Shown here: positions 3,505 through 59,910 of the stretch, piece after piece | Layout of the letters: every line of letters starts with the position of its first letter | How positions within the stretch are numbered: the first letter of the stretch is position 1 | NCBI GenBank assembly: GCA_949284715.1 | Contig: CASDWH010000007.1 | Coordinates: 1 to 64,000 of the forward strand | From: an uncultured bacterium | Lineage (GTDB): Bacteria > Cyanobacteriota > Vampirovibrionia > Gastranaerophilales > Gastranaerophilaceae | DNA length: 64,000 nucleotides | Reading direction: 5' to 3' | Notes under the pieces: model-generated | What the model was told of the DNA's origin: nothing | The model's input: the letters and a program-made list of their open reading frames with translations, nothing else | Database searches by the model: none | Program-made: the position numbers and the translations under genes

Positions 3505-5049
3505 GTGTTAAGAAAAATATATATAGCCTTCATTCTTTCAGCACTCATCGGTCAGACTGTTTTTGCTGATACATATATTAATGATTTAAGAAATTTATTT
3601 TTAAGTAACAAAGCAATTATACTGGCTGTAAATCTAAGAACCTTCAATTCAAAAGATACGGATAAAAACGGATTGATTGACGAAAACGAAGAAAAAGGCA
3701 CCTTCTTAAACGCAATAGAGAGGCTGGATGAGCTTAAAGATGAAGGTATAAACACCCTGCACATTCTGCCGGTTAACCCGACAGGCAAGCTTAAAGCTCT
3801 CGGCACAGCCGGTTCTGTTTACTCTCCTTCATCACTTACAGAATTAAATCCTTATCTTGGCGATGCCAATTCAGAATTAGATATAAAAGATCAGGCTCGC
3901 AAATTTATTGACGAATGTCATAAACGCGGTATCAGAGTAATTGCAGACCTGCCAAGCTGCGGGTCTTATGATATGTATCTGGAACAATCCGATTTGTTTA
4001 AAAAAGATAAAAACCAGATGCCGGTTGTGCCGACAGACTGGACTGATGTCCGGCTTTTTGACACAGGTGCTGACGGCAATCTAAATCAGGGACTTTATGA
4101 CCTGCACATTCAATATGTAGATATGGTTATGAGTCTTGGCTTTGATGGAATAAGAGCTGATGTTGCAACTCTAAAACCATATACATTCTGGAAAAACCTG
4201 ATTTCATACGCAAGAAGCAAAGACCCGAATTTCTTATTCCTTGCCGAAGCTTCAGACTCATGGAGAGAACCGCCGTCTGAATACGCAGTATTTACGCCGT
4301 ACGATAAATTATTAGAAGCCGGATTTGACGGCTACTACGGCAGCTATTTTAATATCAAAGACTGGACTAAAGGTTCTCAGCTTATTAATCACGTTAATTT
4401 TAACAGAAAACTATGCACAAAATACAACACACCTAAATCCGTTATAGGCAGTTTTACAACCCACGATGAAGTAAGCCCTGTGTTAATAAACGGCCCCAAG
4501 TTATCAGAAATGATTATATGGCTCAACACTACACTTCCGCTCAATTCCTACTATGTCGACGGATTCCAGACAGGAGCGCAATATATCTACTTCTGGGGCA
4601 ACAAAAAAGCTGATAAAACATACACTGATGATGACTATTACTTTGTCCACAGAGGCAAGTTCGATTTATTTAACTTCTCAGCAAGACCGCAGGGACAAAA
4701 CTATGATATTAACAATAATTTTATTATTGCTAATAAATACAAGAAAACATTCTCTCAAATCTTTTCAAAAGGAAGTTTCGTACCGTTGTCCGTGTCTGAT
4801 GAGTCTGTTTTTGCATACGCCCGTTCATACGGCGATAAAACAATTATAACAATCGGTAATCTGGATTTTAAAAACTCCAAACAAAAAGTTAAGATTTCCG
4901 TACCTAAAATGAACAACAAGCATAAACCAACAGTTATAAAAGGTTCTTCCGGACACTGTACACTCGTTCAGAAAAAAGATAAATTTATACTTGAAATTCC
5001 GCCCGGGGATATTCAAGTGTACTTAATTAATGACTTATCTATACAATAA
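3505..5049 (+). CDS. Exported GH13 (alpha-amylase family) protein
   Basis: This is a TIM-barrel glycoside hydrolase or glucanotransferase of family GH13; the substrate is unknown. It starts at GTG with AAAGGAG upstream. A Sec signal peptide ends near VFA-D (residues 21-22). The catalytic residues are present: nucleophile D219 in GIRADVA, acid/base E248 in FLAEAS, and D321 in TTHDE. Conserved region I, normally D-x-V-x-N-H, reads DLPSCGS, so the usual Asn-His pair is missing. Residues 51-62 form a textbook EF-hand calcium loop (D51, D53, N55, D59, E62). A beta-rich C-terminal domain follows. A shorter-leadered paralogue lies at 21873-23741. It probably acts in the periplasm or at the surface. 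Confidence 0.88.
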   Translation: MLRKIYIAFILSALIGQTVFADTYINDLRNLFLSNKAIILAVNLRTFNSKDTDKNGLIDENEEKGTFLNAIERLDELKDEGINTLHILPVNPTGKLKALGTAGSVYSPSSLTELNPYLGDANSELDIKDQARKFIDECHKRGIRVIADLPSCGSYDMYLEQSDLFKKDKNQMPVVPTDWTDVRLFDTGADGNLNQGLYDLHIQYVDMVMSLGFDGIRADVATLKPYTFWKNLISYARSKDPNFLFLAEASDSWREPPSEYAVFTPYDKLLEAGFDGYYGSYFNIKDWTKGSQLINHVNFNRKLCTKYNTPKSVIGSFTTHDEVSPVLINGPKLSEMIIWLNTTLPLNSYYVDGFQTGAQYIYFWGNKKADKTYTDDDYYFVHRGKFDLFNFSARPQGQNYDINNNFIIANKYKKTFSQIFSKGSFVPLSVSDESVFAYARSYGDKTIITIGNLDFKNSKQKVKISVPKMNNKHKPTVIKGSSGHCTLVQKKDKFILEIPPGDIQVYLINDLSIQ

Positions 5050-19096: not shown

Positions 19097-21883
19097 ATGG
19101 CAATAAGTAGAATTCAAAATCAAACACCTTTCACACAAAGGCCAAATGTTGACCAAAATTCAAGTAATGTTGCAATGGAGCGGCTGCTTCCGCTGCCAAA
19201 AAGACATTACAGAAACCATAATGAAATCCCGGATTCTGTAAACAGAATTAAACCTGAACCGGGACAAGGCCACTTACTAAACGGCGGGCTGTTTGCATCT
19301 ATCGGCCGATTCTTCTCTAACCGTATTTACGATATTAAATCGGTCTACAAAGGTTATACAGGAACCGCAAATGATCATCAGTTAGGAAGAACCAATGATG
19401 TAGGCCTGGTTCTCGGCGGTCTTGGCATTGCCTCATTCTTGACTACAAAACGGATAGCAACAATGCCTAAACACATGGAATTTGTTGGTTTAGCCTCGTT
19501 CTTAACATCTATGGCTCTCTGGCCTAAAATTGGTATATTCGGCCCCGCAAGAGCTGTTCACGGATTCGATGCAGATAAACGATACATAGACGATCAGGGC
19601 AGAAATAAATCAGTATTTCAAGATCCAAACTATGTACCGTTTGAATTATTCAACGGCAAGAAAAAAAGCGAAAATATTTCCGCAATAGCCGATTATATGG
19701 GCATAGCAAAAGATGCAACCAATAGAAACGAAATGGCAAAAGACCAGATGAGGAAAATAGCCATCCAAAATAACACCCTATGGATGCTTACCTCGGGAGT
19801 CGCAGTTCCAACCCTTACAGCATTGCTATGCAACGGTTTTGAAAGAGTTTACGAACCACTCATTGTTAAGCACAAAGCTTCACAATACAATAAAAAACTC
19901 AATGCAATGTATAATGAGTTAATTACAACCCCAAAAGAAAATAACAAGTCTTCTGACGCTGCTAAAAAACTGCTGGGCAAAATAATGAATTTTGCAGCAT
20001 TAGAAGATTCTGAGAAAATATTAAAAGGTGAAGATGTTATAAATTTTGCTAATACCGTAGCAAAAGATTCCCCATCAGGTATCTCTGCTGCACTTGCAAA
20101 AGATATTACAGCAATGCTTACTCATCCTGATAAAGTTGTCCTTGACAATAAATATATCGAAAATCTTGTTAAAAATATTGAAGTTCAGTTCCAGGGACAC
20201 AAATATCTTAAAAATGCCATCATCTCCTTTGATGATGTACTTAATGCACTATCTCCTGTTAAACCACAGGAGGGTGAACAACAAAAATTTAAAATATCAG
20301 AGATTAAAGCAGCTTTCAACAATAACGAACCTATAACAAAAAAACAATTTGAATTATTACTCAAAGACGGTGTTGTCGTTGATAAGCAGCGACTCATAAA
20401 TGCAGTAACAAAGGCTGTAGGACAAAAGATTGAAAATACTCAATTTACTAATTCCGGCAGTATTTCTTCCGAAACAGTTTTACAGCGTGTAAAACAAATG
20501 GCTATTAATGAAATCAATGGAAACAATATTATTCCAAAATCAGAAAAACTTATTATGACAAAAGATGCCGCTCTAAATATCCAAAAGATGGCGGCTCCTC
20601 TTGCCGAATACATTACCAGACTGCAACAATTACGGGAAATTAATGACTTAAAAATGGGTAATATTGCAGATTCCCAAAACGCGTTCTTCTGGAAAAAACT
20701 GGAAAAAACCTTCACTAATATTGTATTCCCAAATAACGTTATTACATCTAAATCATTTAAAACTTTAGTTGATAATACTGATGATATCGAAAAAGCTGCA
20801 AGGAAAAATCTTGAAAAACTCGTACGAGATGAAGAGCTTTATAAAAAAGCAATTAAAGAAATTGATGAAATCAAAATGACTTATTTAAAGGAAATCTTTG
20901 GCAGCAATGAAGCTCAATATGTACAATATAATGATTTCATAAAAGGTTCTAACCAGCTAAACGGAGTCAACTGGAATGTACGAACTTATGGGGCCTATGG
21001 CACGGAAATTGATAAGTTTATTGAATTACAGACAAAACTTGCTAATAATTTTAATACAAATATTCCTCAGGATACACCGTTTAAAAACCTGATGAAAGTA
21101 CTTATAAACAGACCCCGTGATAATGCATATAATTATACAGTTGCATATCACGAAGTTGAAGAAAATGTTAAAAAGATAGAAAACTTCATAACCGCATGCG
21201 ACAGAATTATTCATTCAATGGATATTTACAGAAGAGCGCATCTAGGAGAAATCGCACCTGATAAAAAGCCTATTGAAGCAGAAATGTTTAATCAGGCAAA
21301 ACACAATGTTATAGGGGCAATGTCTACAGATTTCTTCTCCAAGTTTAATAACAGAAACAGACCGCTTGTTTTCAAAGATTATATGAACCTCATTTACTGT
21401 GAAAACGGATATCTGGATAATGCGACAAAACAAGCGCTGCAAAAAGAATCGCGATATACAGTAGAAGGCTGGATTGATAAAACCAGAAGATTACTATTTA
21501 ATGACCACGCAAACTGGCAGTATTCAGAATTTACAAACAATAACGTATTTCTGAAACCTTATGATGATGCTCTGCTTTCATCTCCTAATGCAAGGTTCCG
21601 TGCGGAAGGCAAAAATCCGGTTGAGTTTCTGAATCAAGGTATTAAAAACTCATATAATAGTAACAAATGGTTAAGAATGTTTGGCGGACTGTTTATCGGC
21701 GTGTTCAGCCTTTCAATTATTGCCCAATTCTTCTTCGGAAAAAAAGATTCAACAATCCCTCTTGAAAAAGACAGAATTGCACGTTTAAAACAAGAAAGTC
21801 TTGAAAAACAAAATACAGATAACAATCAAAAAGATTTAAAACCGGAAAACAAGATTGAAGAGGAGGCTGCAAATGCAAATTAA
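19097..21883 (+). CDS. Large membrane-associated protein of unknown function
   Basis: This is 928 residues, not recognised. Hydrophobic stretches lie near the N-terminus (DVGLVLGGLGIASFLT, FVGLASFLTSMALWP, about residues 95-145), around 230-260 (LWMLTSGVAVPTLTALL) and near the C-terminus (MFGGLFIGVFSLSIIAQFFF, about 862-885). The 550-residue middle is polar and helical with Lys and Asn in abundance. The tail is charged. It starts 1 nt after the previous stop and overlaps the GH13 gene by 11 nt. The three are therefore one transcript and probably one complex or pathway. The position of the helices suggests a large soluble domain held between membrane anchors. Confidence 0.75.
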   Translation: MAISRIQNQTPFTQRPNVDQNSSNVAMERLLPLPKRHYRNHNEIPDSVNRIKPEPGQGHLLNGGLFASIGRFFSNRIYDIKSVYKGYTGTANDHQLGRTNDVGLVLGGLGIASFLTTKRIATMPKHMEFVGLASFLTSMALWPKIGIFGPARAVHGFDADKRYIDDQGRNKSVFQDPNYVPFELFNGKKKSENISAIADYMGIAKDATNRNEMAKDQMRKIAIQNNTLWMLTSGVAVPTLTALLCNGFERVYEPLIVKHKASQYNKKLNAMYNELITTPKENNKSSDAAKKLLGKIMNFAALEDSEKILKGEDVINFANTVAKDSPSGISAALAKDITAMLTHPDKVVLDNKYIENLVKNIEVQFQGHKYLKNAIISFDDVLNALSPVKPQEGEQQKFKISEIKAAFNNNEPITKKQFELLLKDGVVVDKQRLINAVTKAVGQKIENTQFTNSGSISSETVLQRVKQMAINEINGNNIIPKSEKLIMTKDAALNIQKMAAPLAEYITRLQQLREINDLKMGNIADSQNAFFWKKLEKTFTNIVFPNNVITSKSFKTLVDNTDDIEKAARKNLEKLVRDEELYKKAIKEIDEIKMTYLKEIFGSNEAQYVQYNDFIKGSNQLNGVNWNVRTYGAYGTEIDKFIELQTKLANNFNTNIPQDTPFKNLMKVLINRPRDNAYNYTVAYHEVEENVKKIENFITACDRIIHSMDIYRRAHLGEIAPDKKPIEAEMFNQAKHNVIGAMSTDFFSKFNNRNRPLVFKDYMNLIYCENGYLDNATKQALQKESRYTVEGWIDKTRRLLFNDHANWQYSEFTNNNVFLKPYDDALLSSPNARFRAEGKNPVEFLNQGIKNSYNSNKWLRMFGGLFIGVFSLSIIAQFFFGKKDSTIPLEKDRIARLKQESLEKQNTDNNQKDLKPENKIEEEAANAN

Positions 21884-23741
21884 TTCTTTATTCAATGTAA
21901 AAATTCTGAATACCCAGATGAATTTCAAAGCAAATCCGGAAGAAAACAAAACAACAGCGGCTGAATCAAACAATACAAATCAGACAAATCCTTTTGACAA
22001 ATATTTGGATAGTCAGGCAGCCGTTAATTCCGTTGCCGTAAAAAAAACAAACGCTGTTAATGATAAATTACCTGAGAATGTAGAATACCAAAATAATCTG
22101 CGTTCCAAAATCCATAATAATGATGCAATAATAATGGCAGTCATTCCAAGAATGCTGGGAGCAAAAGATTTAAACGGGGACAGAAGAATTAATCCGCGTC
22201 TTGGAGAAAAACCCGGAACATTCCTTAGCTGTATTGATAAACTTGATGATATAAAAAATCTTGGAATTAATACACTTCACCTGCTGCCAATCCACCCGCC
22301 GGGGAAGCATAAAGCAATGGGAACAGCAGGTTCTGTTTATGCACCGCTAAAATTTGTTGAAGATAACGGTGATATTGCGATTGATCCTGTTCTGGTTGAT
22401 TTTTCAGACCCGAGAAGCCCCAAAGAACAATTTAAAACATTTATTGATGCCTGTCACGAGCGAGGTATAAGCGTAATGTTAGACCTGCCAAGCTGTGCCT
22501 CATTAGATATGAGCAATAACGAACAGGAATTAATGGCGCGCGGCAGACACGGAGAAGACAAGTGTCCGCAAGGATGGGTTGATATCAGAATGTTTGACCC
22601 ATGGGCCGATGAAACTAAACGTCTTTTAAATCCCAAATTATTAGAAATGCATAAACAACTTGTTGATAGTTGTATAGAACTCGGTGTTGATGGTATCAGA
22701 GCTGATGTTGCCCGTGCGAAACCTACTGAATTCTGGGATATATTAATTAATTACTCACACGAAAAAGATCCGGAATTTGCATGGCTTGCAGAAACCTATA
22801 CTTATGAATGTGCATCACCGCAGTTAAATATGATGCACGACAGACCTATTGACTCATTAAGAGCCGGCTTTGACTGTTACTACGGTCAATATCACATGTT
22901 CCATGAAATGAAAGCCGGAGAGTTCATAGATTATGTAACAATGAACCTGGACTTAACGAACCGTGATTACGAAGGTGATGGAATAAAAGAACTTGCCGGG
23001 AAATCTTTAATTGGTTCTTTTACAACCCACGACGATATGTCAGCTATGACCAGAGGCGGCGAGATTTTCAGTAATTTATCTACAATTATCCAATCTACAG
23101 TACCGATGACAAATCCATACTATGTTGACGGATTTCAGTATGGCGACTACTATGATTACCCGTATGCGGGCAAGGAAGATATAGAAACTCAGACTGATAG
23201 TAATATAAATAAAGTTCATCCGTACAAACTTGATTTATTTAACTTTGCGGCTCCGTCAGAAGGTAAATGCCACGATATAGGCCGGGTTATGAAAGAAACT
23301 AATGAAATGCGTCAAAAATATAATGACGTAATCACAAAAGGCAGTTTTATAGAGCTCTACAAAGAAGGCGACAAAGGTGACTGGGTTATCCCGTATGCCA
23401 GAACATTAAACGGCAAAACTCTGGTTGTTATTGCCAATAAAAATGTTAACCGCCCAATTTCAGTAAAAGTTTTTGTTCCGGGCATAAAAGAAGGACAAAC
23501 TCTTAAAAATGAAGCACCGTCTTATGGTGAGAAGAGTGAATTTCAAACCTTTGAAAATGAAATAAGCGCAATCCTTGCACCTGCTAAAGCCTATGTATTT
23601 GAAGTTGATACACCGGAATTAGAAGAATATTATCAGGATTTCGTTTATAAACAAAATTTCGATAAAGGAAAGCTAATTCAAGAAGATACCGTCAAAGACA
23701 TAGAAGATGTTTCTGATAAAGATAATAAAAATATTAAATAA
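21873..23741 (+). CDS. GH13 (alpha-amylase family) protein without signal peptide
   Basis: This is a 622-residue paralogue of the exported protein at 3505-5049. Catalytic residues D278 (GIRADVA), E307 (LAETY) and D387 (TTHDD) are kept. Region I again reads DLPSCAS in place of D-x-V-x-N-H. The EF-hand-like loop of the paralogue is degenerate here (DLNGDRRINPRLGE). The first 80 residues are polar and include MNFKAN at residues 16-21, an F-x-K element shared with other unknown proteins, and there is no Sec signal. The ATG at 21873 has a perfect AGGAGG. It is the last gene of the operon. It is likely an alpha-glucan-active enzyme acting with the two upstream membrane proteins. Confidence 0.85.
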   Translation: MQINSLFNVKILNTQMNFKANPEENKTTAAESNNTNQTNPFDKYLDSQAAVNSVAVKKTNAVNDKLPENVEYQNNLRSKIHNNDAIIMAVIPRMLGAKDLNGDRRINPRLGEKPGTFLSCIDKLDDIKNLGINTLHLLPIHPPGKHKAMGTAGSVYAPLKFVEDNGDIAIDPVLVDFSDPRSPKEQFKTFIDACHERGISVMLDLPSCASLDMSNNEQELMARGRHGEDKCPQGWVDIRMFDPWADETKRLLNPKLLEMHKQLVDSCIELGVDGIRADVARAKPTEFWDILINYSHEKDPEFAWLAETYTYECASPQLNMMHDRPIDSLRAGFDCYYGQYHMFHEMKAGEFIDYVTMNLDLTNRDYEGDGIKELAGKSLIGSFTTHDDMSAMTRGGEIFSNLSTIIQSTVPMTNPYYVDGFQYGDYYDYPYAGKEDIETQTDSNINKVHPYKLDLFNFAAPSEGKCHDIGRVMKETNEMRQKYNDVITKGSFIELYKEGDKGDWVIPYARTLNGKTLVVIANKNVNRPISVKVFVPGIKEGQTLKNEAPSYGEKSEFQTFENEISAILAPAKAYVFEVDTPELEEYYQDFVYKQNFDKGKLIQEDTVKDIEDVSDKDNKNIK

Positions 23742-46605: not shown

Positions 46606-47181
46606 CTAAAAATTTCCTCCGACAAGATAATAATAAGAGCAGCAGCAGCCGGTTCCGCCTTTAGCACAATCTGCTTTTATCTCCTCATGAGATTTCCGTG
46701 AACAGAGAGGTTCTATTTTATCTTTGTATATATTCATCCCAAAAACATCTTTTCCCCATCTGTTAGGCGCCTCTTTTCCATTAATATCATAAAACATGAT
46801 ACCGCTTTTCTCATCTTTAGAAACCTCTTCCCATTTAAACCCTATAACATTATCCGTTCCGATTTCGTATACACTCGTAAAATCACCTATTCCGGAAGCG
46901 GCACTCCCATTCATATACTTTATTTTATAGGGTTGTATTCTCTTATAGTCAGAATCAGAAATAGATTTCATTATATATTCTTCTAATTCCTTATTACTTT
47001 TTGCCCCATACGCTCCAGCAGCAGAAAAAGCATGCGTAAGTCTATCCTGCAATGCCCGCCATTCTAAAACACGTGAGGCCTGCTTTGTATCATTAATCGA
47101 AAACGGTATTAGTAAACACCCGACTATAATAAGAATTACTGCAAGAATGCTTATTTCTACAATTGTAAATCCTTTTTTCAT
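46606..47181 (-). CDS. Type IV prepilin-like protein
   Basis: This is 191 residues. The leader MKKG is cut before FTIVEISILAVILIIVGCLL, with Glu at mature position 5 and a hydrophobic helix. The globular part is unknown. Its C-terminus is cysteine-rich (CSRKSHEEIKADCAKGGTG then CCCSYYY), suggesting disulfides. AAGGAGAG precedes the ATG at 47181, while the longer frame to 47253 has no site. It sits in the rny-ymdB-PHP-prepilin-LOG run. It may be a minor pilin or pseudopilin. Confidence 0.88.
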   Translation of the reverse strand: MKKGFTIVEISILAVILIIVGCLLIPFSINDTKQASRVLEWRALQDRLTHAFSAAGAYGAKSNKELEEYIMKSISDSDYKRIQPYKIKYMNGSAASGIGDFTSVYEIGTDNVIGFKWEEVSKDEKSGIMFYDINGKEAPNRWGKDVFGMNIYKDKIEPLCSRKSHEEIKADCAKGGTGCCCSYYYLVGGNF

Positions 47182-54305: not shown

Positions 54306-54905
54306 ATGAAGCTTTCTGCAACAAACAGAATTCCGCAGAATTTACAATTCAAAGGAGTAACACCAAATAAGTTAACCAAAACAGCTTATTCAGCATTGTT
54401 CACACTCACACTGCTTTCCGGCGGAAATAAAATCATACAGGACACATTTACCAAAGAACAAAAAACAAAAACAGAACAGCCAGGGCAGTATAATTCCGTT
54501 AACAAAGCGCAGAGCGTATATACCGATATGTGGGGGCGAAGCTGGGTGCCATATTCTGAATATCAGGAACTTGAAGATAAAACCTATAATGCAGAAATAG
54601 AAAAAAACGAACTTGAATCAGAGTCTGATAGAATAAACGATTTGTACTATCAGACAGAAGATTACTATTTAAGACTAAAGGAAAAATACGAAACAATCCA
54701 AAAAGATTTAGAAACTCAGAGCATCCGTCAGGAATACCGTATAGACAAGATTAATGAAACAGAAGAAAATATTATCAAAAAATTAGACCGGCTGCTGGAA
54801 TGCTTTTTTATGGGACTTTTTCCGGCATTTGCGCTTACTCTTGGAATAGGGACTATAAGGAAGCTGAATAAAATGGATGATAAAAATAATTATTTAAGGA
54901 AATAA
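54306..54905 (+). CDS. Coiled-coil membrane protein, first of a tandem pair
   Basis: This is 199 residues, not recognised. The polar N-terminus holds PQNLQFKGVTPNK, an F-x-G element. A hydrophobic segment follows (AYSALFTLTLLSGG). A conserved RSWVPYSEYQ motif lies near residue 80. About 80 residues of coiled coil follow, then a second hydrophobic helix near the C-terminus (FFMGLFPAFALTLGIG). AAGGAGT precedes the ATG. The next gene has the same plan and shares the motifs, so the pair arose by duplication. Confidence 0.75.
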   Translation: MKLSATNRIPQNLQFKGVTPNKLTKTAYSALFTLTLLSGGNKIIQDTFTKEQKTKTEQPGQYNSVNKAQSVYTDMWGRSWVPYSEYQELEDKTYNAEIEKNELESESDRINDLYYQTEDYYLRLKEKYETIQKDLETQSIRQEYRIDKINETEENIIKKLDRLLECFFMGLFPAFALTLGIGTIRKLNKMDDKNNYLRK

Positions 54906-54913
54906 AGAGAAGT

Positions 54914-55507
54914 ATGAAAATATACCCGATAACCAATAATAAAAATTATACAGGACTGAAGCCGAATAAAACAATTAATGCAGCATATTCCGCTGTTTTT
55001 TCGCTCTCGCTTCTGTCTGCAATTGCAGGAGGGGCATCTTTAACAAAAGACACCTATACCCCGAAAAACACCGAAAAATCAGAACTTAGAACCTTAGATA
55101 AACCCGCTGTTATAAAGGCACAGACAATCTATAAAGACAGTTACGGAAACAGGTGGGTGCCATACGAGGATTATCGTCAAAAATACAGAGAATACGCAGG
55201 ACATAAAGAATACATTGACATCTATAAAAGAAGAATCACTGAAGATACCGGAGAAATAAATAAATTTAATGGTGAAATACAGGAGTTGAGCAGGTATATT
55301 AATGAGGCAGAGGAAGCTATGCCGCAGATAATTGCTAAAAGCGAAGAACTGAAACAAACTAAAGAAGATATTGAAGAATATTATTCACTATTAGAAGATT
55401 CTAATCTGGAATTTGGAGCTATAGGAGTGGTATCCGGTATTTTGCTTGGCTTGATATCACGCGGGCTTTTCAATCTTTATAATAATGTTACAAAACGTAA
55501 AAAATAA
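54914..55507 (+). CDS. Coiled-coil membrane protein, second of a tandem pair
   Basis: This is 197 residues, paralogous to the preceding gene. The N-terminus reads MKIYPITNNKNYTGLKPNKT, then AAYSAVFSLSLLSAIAGG (hydrophobic), NRWVPYEDYRQ, a long coiled coil and a C-terminal helix (IGVVSGILLGLISRGLF). Shared blocks are KPNK/TPNK, the AYSA hydrophobic start, KAQ-x-[VI]Y and WVPY. It begins 8 nt after the first copy. The two may form a heteromeric membrane complex; the function is unknown. Confidence 0.75.
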   Translation: MKIYPITNNKNYTGLKPNKTINAAYSAVFSLSLLSAIAGGASLTKDTYTPKNTEKSELRTLDKPAVIKAQTIYKDSYGNRWVPYEDYRQKYREYAGHKEYIDIYKRRITEDTGEINKFNGEIQELSRYINEAEEAMPQIIAKSEELKQTKEDIEEYYSLLEDSNLEFGAIGVVSGILLGLISRGLFNLYNNVTKRKK

Positions 55508-57475: not shown

Positions 57476-57642
57476 TAAGGTAATTCACAGCCTGAGAGGC
57501 AAAATATAGTAAAGCACATAAAGAGGATAGATTGTTGTGTTTAGCTGCGTTTGCAGGGAACAGCTCATTTAAAAAACGGGCGGTTCCGTACTCGGGCTAT
57601 TAGAGAAATGTAAAGCACTAAAAAATGAGGATATTATTTAGA
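57476..57642 (+). promoter_or_regulatory. Long structured 5' leader
   Basis: The leader holds the hairpin GCCT-GAG-AGGC, an AGCTG/CAGCT stem and a possible GGAAC/GTTCC pairing. It also has a direct repeat: GTAAAGCAC followed by an A-rich stretch and GAGGATA, at 57509-57529 and again at 57610-57633 just before the gene. It could be a regulatory RNA. It does not match the c-di-GMP riboswitch sequences I know. Confidence 0.4.
57532..57603 (+). CDS. Possible leader micro-ORF
   Basis: From TTG at 57532 (AGAGGATAGA upstream) a 23-codon frame reads LCLAAFAGNSSFKKR, then AVPYSGY and TAG. It lies wholly inside the leader of the next gene and ends 39 nt before its ATG. It could be a regulatory leader peptide or the remnant of a lost gene. 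The non-ATG start and small size make this tentative. Confidence 0.25.
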   Translation: MLCLAAFAGNSSFKKRAVPYSGY

Positions 57643-59853
57643 ATGAAAAGAATTTACAGAATCAAAGACGGATTCTCTCTTATGGAGATGATGGTTGTTA
57701 TGCTCGTCGTAGCGGTTGTTATGGCTTTATCTGCTCCGATGATTACTAAAAAAGCCGGAGGTGCAGGAGGCGCGGGATGCCTCTGGACAAGCCTGACAGG
57801 CGGCAATATCGGGTTTAATATGAACACTAATTCTATTTCTGCAATTGTCGGCGGTAACAATGACCAGATTACTACACTAGGAGTTAATGTTCCTAAATTC
57901 ACTATTGCTTCTAACTCCAATTTTCCGCATATAGGCTTTGTTCACGAAGACCTCATGTCAGGAACTTTAATGGTTGCTAACAACAACTCTATATCACTGG
58001 GAAACAATGCGAGAACTCTTGGATCTAACAGTATTGCAATAGGTACAAATGCTAATGCGGCAACTGTTAATGATACATATAAGAATTCTATTGCTATAGG
58101 TTATTTTGCTAATGCCGGCGGAACTAACTCAATTGCGATTGGAGCAAATGCAAACGCATATGACCCGGGTGTCGGAGTAGAAACGGCTAACGCGATTGCT
58201 ATTGGGGCAGTGTCAAATACTGCAAACGGGAACCACTCTGTTGCCATAGGGGAAAGATCAAACGCTGCACAGGTAAAATTCAGCAGTGTAGCTGTCGGGT
58301 GTAATGCAAATACTTATTCTTCTAATAATTCTGTCGCCGTCGGCAGATGCGCAACTACTTATGGCAGCGGTTCCTGTGCTGTTGCTGTTGGCTCTCTTGC
58401 TCGAGCTAATAAAGAAGGAAGTATTGCTATCGGAGCTACAGTAACTGATGATTTTTCTACCTTTACAACCGCTACCACCGCTGCTGGTGTTAACTCTATT
58501 GCTATCGGCCGGAGGGCTAACGCTACAAGCAATAATGTTATATGTATCGGCAACAATGCACATACTATTGCAGGGACATCAAGTATTGACGCAATTGCTA
58601 TAGGCAATAATGCTTTTGCACAAATGAATCATGGTATTGCTATTGGCAGCCATACCTGGGCGCAGGATGGATGTATCGCTATCGGTAATAATGCCAATAT
58701 AATTGGGAATAACTCTATTGCTATTGGTACCAGTGCAGGGTATACAGGGGCTGTAAATTCTGTTGCTATTGGAACAATAGCATCAGCAGATGATAGGAGT
58801 GTTGCTATCGGTAATCAGGCTGATGCTAGCGGCATAACCGATGCAGTAGTGATTGGAGATCAAACTACAGCTTTAGCCAATATGGCAACTGTTGTTGGAA
58901 GCAGTTCGTCTGCACATGGCTACGCTATAGCTATTGGAAATGACGCTCATGCTACCGGAACACGCTCTGTTGCTATAGGCAGTTCATCTACTGCCAGTGC
59001 CACCGGAAGTATTGCAATCGGAAATCAGGCTTCATGTACGGCAACAAGCGGTGTTGCTATCGGGACTGCGGCTAATGCCGGTCAGTCTGCCACCGCTCTC
59101 GGATGGGATTCCAGCGCCGCACATTATCATTCTACCGCAATAGGCGCAGGGGCTACTACTACAAAACAACACCAGATTGTAATCGGAACATCAAGTGATA
59201 CCGTCTATATTCCGGGAACTGTTGAATTTAATGACCTTCAGGTTAGCGGCAATCTTAGAGTAGTAGGAAATACCCTGCTAGGTTCATACGGTCATTATAC
59301 CGGTGTTTTTGCAACAAACAACGGGAATTACGGCTGGTTGAGAAGATATTCCGGCGGCAACGATGATAAAATCTGGTTTGGCGGAGGGGCTTCTGCTAGA
59401 TTGTACTATGCTCCCGGCAAATCTGTAACAATTAACTCAGATAAAAGACTCAAAGACATCATCGGCGAAAACTTAGACGCTATGGACAAAATTAACCGTA
59501 TCAAAGTCTATGATTTCACTTTCAAGAAAGATGATATGAAAACCCCGCATGTCGGTGTTATCGCTCAGGAACTTCAAAAAATCTTCCCTAACGCTGTTAC
59601 TAAAGACGAAAACGGGTATCTGCAAATAAGGCACGAAGATATGTTCTACACTATGATTAATGCGCTTAAAGAACTAGATGCCAGAATCAAACAAATAGCT
59701 GAACAGCTAGCAGATAACATCAAAGTCGTAACCTCTGACAGCGCCAAGATTAAAGACCTGACACTCCGCGTTAATCAGCAGGACAAGGAAATTAAGGCGC
59801 TTAAAAAAGAAATCGCTGAGCTTAAAAAAGCTATTAGCAGATTATCTAAATAG
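57643..59853 (+). CDS. Prepilin-leader protein with YadA-like head repeats and S74 intramolecular chaperone domain
   Basis: This is a surface protein of 736 residues with three parts. The N-terminus MKRIYRIKDG/FSLMEMMVVMLVVAVV is a type IV prepilin signal with Glu at mature position 5. Residues about 100-540 contain some 20 repeats of the NSIAIGxxAxA type, the left-handed beta-roll of trimeric autotransporter (YadA) heads. From about 595 the Peptidase_S74 domain begins with SDKRLKDI (candidate Ser599/Lys604 autocleavage dyad), then HVGVIAQELQKIFP. A coiled coil closes the protein (670-736). S74 domains trimerise phage tailspikes and then cut themselves off. Trimer assembly at the cell surface or on a pilus is inferred. 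There is no Sec signal or autotransporter barrel. The ATG at 57643 has GAGGA 11 nt before; one at 57625 is possible. Confidence 0.88.
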   Translation: MKRIYRIKDGFSLMEMMVVMLVVAVVMALSAPMITKKAGGAGGAGCLWTSLTGGNIGFNMNTNSISAIVGGNNDQITTLGVNVPKFTIASNSNFPHIGFVHEDLMSGTLMVANNNSISLGNNARTLGSNSIAIGTNANAATVNDTYKNSIAIGYFANAGGTNSIAIGANANAYDPGVGVETANAIAIGAVSNTANGNHSVAIGERSNAAQVKFSSVAVGCNANTYSSNNSVAVGRCATTYGSGSCAVAVGSLARANKEGSIAIGATVTDDFSTFTTATTAAGVNSIAIGRRANATSNNVICIGNNAHTIAGTSSIDAIAIGNNAFAQMNHGIAIGSHTWAQDGCIAIGNNANIIGNNSIAIGTSAGYTGAVNSVAIGTIASADDRSVAIGNQADASGITDAVVIGDQTTALANMATVVGSSSSAHGYAIAIGNDAHATGTRSVAIGSSSTASATGSIAIGNQASCTATSGVAIGTAANAGQSATALGWDSSAAHYHSTAIGAGATTTKQHQIVIGTSSDTVYIPGTVEFNDLQVSGNLRVVGNTLLGSYGHYTGVFATNNGNYGWLRRYSGGNDDKIWFGGGASARLYYAPGKSVTINSDKRLKDIIGENLDAMDKINRIKVYDFTFKKDDMKTPHVGVIAQELQKIFPNAVTKDENGYLQIRHEDMFYTMINALKELDARIKQIAEQLADNIKVVTSDSAKIKDLTLRVNQQDKEIKALKKEIAELKKAISRLSK

Positions 59854-59883: not shown

Positions 59884-59910
59884 ACGGCTCATCAAATGAG
59901 CCGTTTTTTT
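59884..59910 (+). terminator. Intrinsic terminator after the S74 gene
   Basis: A perfect 9-bp stem ACGGCTCAT/ATGAGCCGT with loop CAA is followed by T7. Confidence 0.88.

Follow-up and report, generated by a model that had tools for sequence, protein, structure and literature searches.

We find that a 736-residue protein encoded in the window (the whole 64,000-nucleotide stretch of Gastranaerophilales DNA analysed here) combines, in one chain and in this order, a prepilin N-terminus (N_methyl), a YadA-type head (YadA_head) and a Peptidase_S74 domain, as an earlier reading of the sequence alone had claimed and as Pfam and NCBIfam searches bear out. It belongs to a large, partly on/off-switching Gastranaerophilales family that probably places three-chain adhesins on type IV pili. 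The features of the gene are as follows.

57643..59853, plus strand: the whole gene, a modular prepilin made of leader, alpha1N helix, beta-rich domain, YadA-like head, beta-helix neck, S74 and C-terminal helix (domain searches)
57643..57672, plus strand: class III leader MKRIYRIKDG, with the predicted prepilin-peptidase cut after Gly10, before Phe11 (+1) (PF07963 / TIGR02532)
57673..57747, plus strand: hydrophobic alpha1N helix with Glu at +5 (AlphaFold2 helix 13-35)
57784..58017, plus strand: conserved beta-rich domain past the helix, from W48 onward (alignment of relatives' N-termini; low model confidence)
58018..59220, plus strand: YadA-like head, about 22 NSIAIG-type repeats, predicted left-handed beta-roll (PF05658; pLDDT mostly 80-98; Foldseek)
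59221..59436, plus strand: VYIPG motif and neck before S74, a presumed trimer-only triple beta-helix (no confident monomer model; analogy with the S74 fibres of PMC10769870)
59437..59712, plus strand: S74 intramolecular chaperone / autoprotease, dyad Ser599/Lys604, predicted self-cut before Ser599 (59436 / 59437) (PF13884, profile matches, dyad conservation)
59632..59850, plus strand: long C-terminal helix, probably a coiled coil, within and beyond S74 (AlphaFold2 helix 664-735)
59884..59910, plus strand: terminator-like inverted repeat and T run past the stop codon (sequence read directly)

The coordinates and strand of this single open frame were confirmed. An alternative ATG start lies at 57625, six codons upstream, and we prefer 57643 because AGGA (read by eye) directly precedes it. 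The gene is unbroken within an 85-kb contig and its neighbours are ordinary ones: bipA/typA, a solute-binding lipoprotein gene and other housekeeping genes, with no phage gene context and, within the window, no pilus genes around it. Elsewhere in the window, two adjacent genes (54306-54905 and 54914-55507) are seemingly tandem paralogs encoding small proteins with a membrane segment and a coiled coil, and two similar-looking glycoside-hydrolase (alpha-amylase-like) genes, one with a signal peptide by eye, lie at 3505-5049 and 21855-23741.

At the N-terminus, where a type Vc protein would have a Sec signal peptide, there is instead a prepilin leader, matched by PF07963 (N_methyl) at residues 10-29 (E 1.2e-5; 25.1 bits, cut-off 21.2) and by TIGR02532 (26.1 bits, cut-off 16.3). 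With a class III prepilin motif above cut-off and two additional non-pilus modules, YadA_head and Peptidase_S74, the protein shows two features of a modular type IV pilin. Residues 30-110 gave no Pfam domain match, and AlphaFold2 leaves residues 31-44 disordered and 45-110 at low confidence; as no pilin globular domain is recognisable after alpha1N, how the protein docks in a filament is uncertain. The sequence-only reading had also pointed to two other prepilin-like genes in the window. One of these, at 1-60, is indeed the start of a minus-strand N_methyl prepilin cut by the contig end (34.1 bits); the other, at 46606-47181 on the minus strand, has a prepilin-like start by eye (MKKGFTIVEIS) but its product matches no Pfam or NCBIfam profile.

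The head was matched by PF05658 (YadA_head) in 8 stretches (E 3.7e-36). We counted 22 copies of its motif, with a spacing of mostly 13-16 residues, against a maximum of 6 and a mean of 1 in 2000 shuffles, which agrees with the roughly 20 NSIAIG-type repeats counted earlier. NCBIfam reports a resemblance of the protein to YadA and EmaA, and a sequence-profile search against solved structures matches the head to those of YadA and EibD. The AlphaFold2 monomer of the full chain has a helix at 13-35 and confident repetitive beta structure at about 110-520, for which Foldseek gave BpaC (7o23, E 2.9e-10) as best match, with EibD, BoaA and YadA also found; the head is thus predicted to fold like the heads of trimeric autotransporters. 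The type Vc head repeats are therefore present, and the type Vc anchor barrel (PF03895) is absent, by profile search, from the protein and from 34 related genomes. A hidden YadA barrel was rejected on this ground.

The C-terminal part carries PF13884 (Peptidase_S74) at residues 599-653 (E 1.2e-14), and the candidate dyad is where it had been placed, in Ser599-Asp600-x-x-x-Lys604, so that the chain ends as S74 intramolecular chaperones do, in a C-terminal S74 domain with SDxxxK. Profile matches include the MyRF ICA (7dc3, E 6e-10) and a tail fibre (8jov). The C-terminal fragment yielded a low-quality model (pTM 0.28), for which Foldseek gave a non-significant match (E 0.33) to 3gw6, a phage intramolecular chaperone; S74 membership therefore rests on sequence profiles. 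Residues 524-637 have no confident model in the AlphaFold2 monomer, as would be expected if the neck exists solely as an intertwined trimer, though this is not evidence for a trimer.

In the source genome (2.0 Mb, 42 contigs) S74 was matched four times: in the window gene, at the end of contig C9, and once each on C21 and C36. The last two contigs begin inside near-identical copies of S74, and therefore the assembly does break there; C29 ends within a close paralog whose N-terminus is nearly identical but whose head has diverged. Among relatives, S74 is found in 31 of 59 genomes; their placement in the order is deduced from contigs that recur unchanged in GTDB records. A prepilin leader, detected by a pattern requiring Glu at +5, precedes it in 63 of the 65 S74 reading frames uncut by a contig end (13 further ones are cut), and likewise in 50 of 51 uncut S74 loci of GTDB contigs, an overlapping set whose contigs are all named Gastranaerophilales, Melainabacteria or unspecific bacteria. 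One exception (L077, identical to L130; L130:3300-4435) is leaderless, with head repeats, a stop and then S74, and is either a decayed gene or a silent recombination donor; the other (L089) is an unrelated S74 protein. As controls, no leader was found in any of 75 uncut viral S74 proteins or in 10 S74 proteins of other cyanobacterial genomes. At residue -1, which the pattern left free, 117 of 118 distinct genes of relatives encode Gly or Ala. SDxxxK is present in all 75 members of the first set of relatives and in 80 of 83 in the GTDB set, where one of the three without it (L174) has Cys for Ser.

The domain order was confirmed by Pfam in ten relatives and spans many genomes and genera and three families, so the order of prepilin, YadA-like head and S74 which the sequence-only reading had proposed to look for in related genomes does recur. 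At least 5 YadA repeats are present in only about a third (31/95) of distinct uncut members: the constant pair is prepilin plus S74, and the YadA head is one of several middles. Misassembly was rejected, given this recurrence and the unbroken window copy, as was a stray phage gene, given the leaderless viral proteins and the absence of phage context.

The family is organised in two modes, as dispersed paralogs with like ends and unlike middles, or as operon triplets. Within-genome median identities of the dispersed paralogs, given as first 60 residues/middle/S74, are 100/58/99% in genome G003, 90/53/92% in G026, 100/50/80% in G028, 91/44/97% in G033, 77/38/93% in G317 and 88/54/87% in G109; DNA alignments have the same similar ends and diverged middles, and in a tree the S74 domains cluster by genome. 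The triplets, three different prepilin-S74 genes in a row, are found in families f6 and f7 and also in genomes G031 and G034; a fourth prepilin follows in several loci, and in most of those of f6/f7. The f6 triplet genes fall mostly into three orthologous groups with about one member per genome each. Such fixed protein triplets, bearing a three-fold chaperone, suggest, but do not show, that the products form heterotrimers. Triplet operons were seen at loci L057, L066, L079, L083, L084 and L038. Among the paralogs at L311-L320 (G317) and L056-L093 (G026), DNA similarity begins with the codon for residue +1 of the mature chain, with differing leaders and upstream DNA, and in G026 a dispersed repeat supplies several of the leaders (...MTRQA before FTLAEMM); we could not assign this start of homology to any named mobile element.

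In relatives from other genera, expression of these genes is probably switched. In 20 of the 118 distinct genes, the 250 nt ahead of the +1 codon contain a sense-strand run of at least nine G, usually in the leader. Eighteen genes, from about 11 metagenome-assembled genomes (MAGs), have runs of 9-11 G in the leader, 44-89 nt upstream of the +1 codon (L044, L047, L050, L041, L055, L139, L142, L148, L151, L158, L168, L180, L188, L311, L317, L321, L323 and L325). For 18 of the 20, a frame opened by an upstream ATG, in most cases with an SD-like motif, enters the run, whose length determines whether it continues in that of the prepilin. Thus in G033 the frame of L044 (G10) stays open, whereas L047 and L050, paralogs that share its start MAESIDIIEFAR but have G11, stop immediately; in G028 the open copy is L041, with G11, and the closed one L055, with G10. 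Such ON and OFF copies within one genome make phase variation probable in these relatives, with the proviso that homopolymer lengths in a MAG consensus may contain errors. ON/OFF poly-G tracts typically mark proteins exposed at the surface. No such tract accompanies the window copy.

For export, genes for a PilQ-like secretin, a PilB-type ATPase and a PilC-type platform protein lie side by side in the source genome, which also codes for two PilT-family ATPases that pass their cut-off and for a single prepilin peptidase that only just passes its own. Its 13 N_methyl prepilins are all served by the single secretin and the single PilB/GspE-like ATPase; the secretin scores slightly better as GspD than as PilQ, both below cut-off. 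The two PilT retraction ATPases indicate a type IVa pilus. As there is no YadA_anchor and a pilus machine is encoded, type IV filament export is on offer to this protein, and autotransport and phage assembly are not. The earlier idea of a prepilin-headed adhesin thus gains from the recurrence of the family, the lack of a barrel and the type IVa machine, but loses the YadA head as a constant part.

We consider it rather probable that the protein is a modular minor pilin, trimerised and then trimmed by S74, and displayed by type IV pili. What follows for the protein in the cell we infer. The leader would direct the chain to the inner membrane, where prepilin peptidase would cleave after Gly10. 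Once the chains are in the periplasm, S74 at their C-terminal ends may hold three of them together and nucleate a trimeric fibre of beta-roll and beta-helix; after folding, the Ser599/Lys604 dyad would cut before Ser599, releasing the chaperone and its coiled coil. The trimmed trimer would have three alpha1N helices below, with head and neck above and distal, a polarity opposite to that of YadA in that each chain would be anchored at its N-terminal end. The type IV pilus machine could then take up the trimer, most likely as a tip like the TcpB/CofB homotrimers, and the pilus-borne trimer would expose a binding surface.

The trimer might, alternatively, be an anchored fibre and no pilin at all, with the prepilin signal merely targeting or anchoring it in the inner membrane, or permitting its release, and no pilus assembly following. 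This would fit a pilin part limited to alpha1N, modelled as a 23-residue helix and then a disordered stretch, and genes that in the window's genus are dispersed outside pilus operons. We think it unlikely: Gly/Ala at -1 and Glu at +5 (the latter part of the search pattern) are conserved, and such residues are needed in general for pilin processing and assembly; moreover, the f6/f7 operons mostly place a fourth prepilin after their three S74-prepilins, and a full type IVa machine is encoded. A tip or adapter of another type IV filament (a DNA-uptake pilus, or a cargo-carrying type II secretion pseudopilus), rather than an adhesin, would be in keeping with one secretin and one PilB/GspE-like ATPase for all prepilins, with the slightly GspD-leaning (sub-cut-off) secretin score, and with the TcpB trimer, which carries a secreted protein (PMC9565799). 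However, the PilT-family pair points to a type IVa pilus, and ligand binding better suits YadA-type heads and variable middles, which leaves such a tip distinctly unlikely.

That the protein is a pilin with a working peptidase, whose S74 cleaves other proteins, seems to us very improbable. Raynaud et al. 2021 (PMC8179133) did describe the S74 module as a predicted peptidase activity, but characterised S74 domains cut themselves once and are then released (PMC10769870), and this family retains the chaperone part and the long C-terminal helix. Scarcely credible, finally, is a recent capture of a phage tail-fibre gene, or an assembly chimera, despite the frequency of S74 in tail fibres and the two contigs (C21 and C36) that start within near-identical S74 copies: the recurrence across three families speaks against both, the best viral S74 matches are at most 45% identical and none has a leader, and the window copy lies intact among its ordinary neighbours.

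Set beside known systems, the S74-pilin reading has precedents for most of its parts. Prepilin plus S74 is already among the 15 commonest modular pilin architectures (PMC8179133), so that, of the "adhesin class" of the sequence-only reading, the three-domain chain recurs but the pairing of prepilin and S74 is not new. Like those modular type IV pilins (S. sanguinis PilB and PilC; the class IPR012902 + IPR030392), the window protein has a prepilin leader and a large extra module; unlike them, it has a YadA-type head in between and no recognised pilin globular domain, and its S74 is more plausibly a cut-off trimerising chaperone than an effector peptidase. The direct mechanistic precedent is given by TcpB and CofB of type IVb pili, large homotrimeric minor pilins that can cap the pilus and for which a trimer at the tip is proposed; these trimerise via their own C-terminal beta domains, have their own pilin-like domain, and are described without S74 or a YadA head (PMC9565799).

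S74 had been taken as an ending of phage tail fibres, but it is not confined to phages. The mosaic adhesive trimers of Bdellovibrio, compared here through their published description (PMC10769870), are likewise trimeric fibres of cellular origin that end in S74; they form a repertoire of many genes, differ in their tips and cleave themselves at the SDxxxK serine, which S782A blocks. They start with a signal peptide and a conserved beta domain, and that description mentions neither pilins nor YadA-head repeats. Trimeric autotransporter adhesins (YadA, BpaC, EibD) share the head repeats and the predicted head fold, whereas the window protein lacks their barrel anchor, has a prepilin leader as export signal and would be anchored by its N-terminal end. 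The PilV shufflon adhesins of IncI plasmid pili are also minor pilins with a constant N-terminus and a variable binding part, but PilV varies by DNA inversion within one gene (PMC9045228) and prepilin-S74 through its set of paralogs, joined in some genera by poly-G tracts. For the latter, Neisseria pilC, whose product acts in pilus adhesion/retraction, is a precedent, being switched by a homopolymeric G/C tract within the gene; PilC is, however, not a pilin and lacks S74 and a YadA head (PMC5953494), and the window copy lacks a tract. In a search of open-licence papers, we found no description of a prepilin-S74 family in Gastranaerophilales, nor of the YadA-head version, the triplets or the poly-G switch.

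If the S74-pilin reading is right, S74 in a frequent modular-pilin architecture would build and trim a trimer rather than cut targets, YadA-type heads would have a second export route with a polarity opposite to that of autotransporters, and an uncultured gut lineage would have pilus adhesins with variable sequences and, probably, on/off switching. More tentatively, we envisage a Gastranaerophilales adhesin system of pilus tips made of S74-folded prepilin trimers, as homotrimers in one lineage, drawn from a repertoire that poly-G phase variation switches and whose members combine constant ends with varied middles, and possibly as operon-triplet heterotrimers in others, in which the tip of a retractile pilus would be built by a phage-type, self-releasing chaperone.

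Switching may extend beyond this family. In the fetched loci, which are biased toward the prepilin-S74 family and hence toward such an enrichment, 18 of 32 distinct runs of at least eight G lie upstream of prepilin-S74 genes; whole-genome counts find the tracts common in G028, G109 and G317 and rare in G033 and in the source genome (G000). With tracts this frequent outside the family in some genomes, the local enrichment does not set prepilin-S74 genes apart. Leaders of ordinary prepilins also contain poly-G (L339, L350, L353), in L339 directly before GFTLAE, and taken with the genome-wide tracts of G028, G109 and G317 we read this as a larger phase-variable gene set. In the source genome, a poly-C run (G000:C18:22158-22166) lies about 100 nt upstream of another prepilin.
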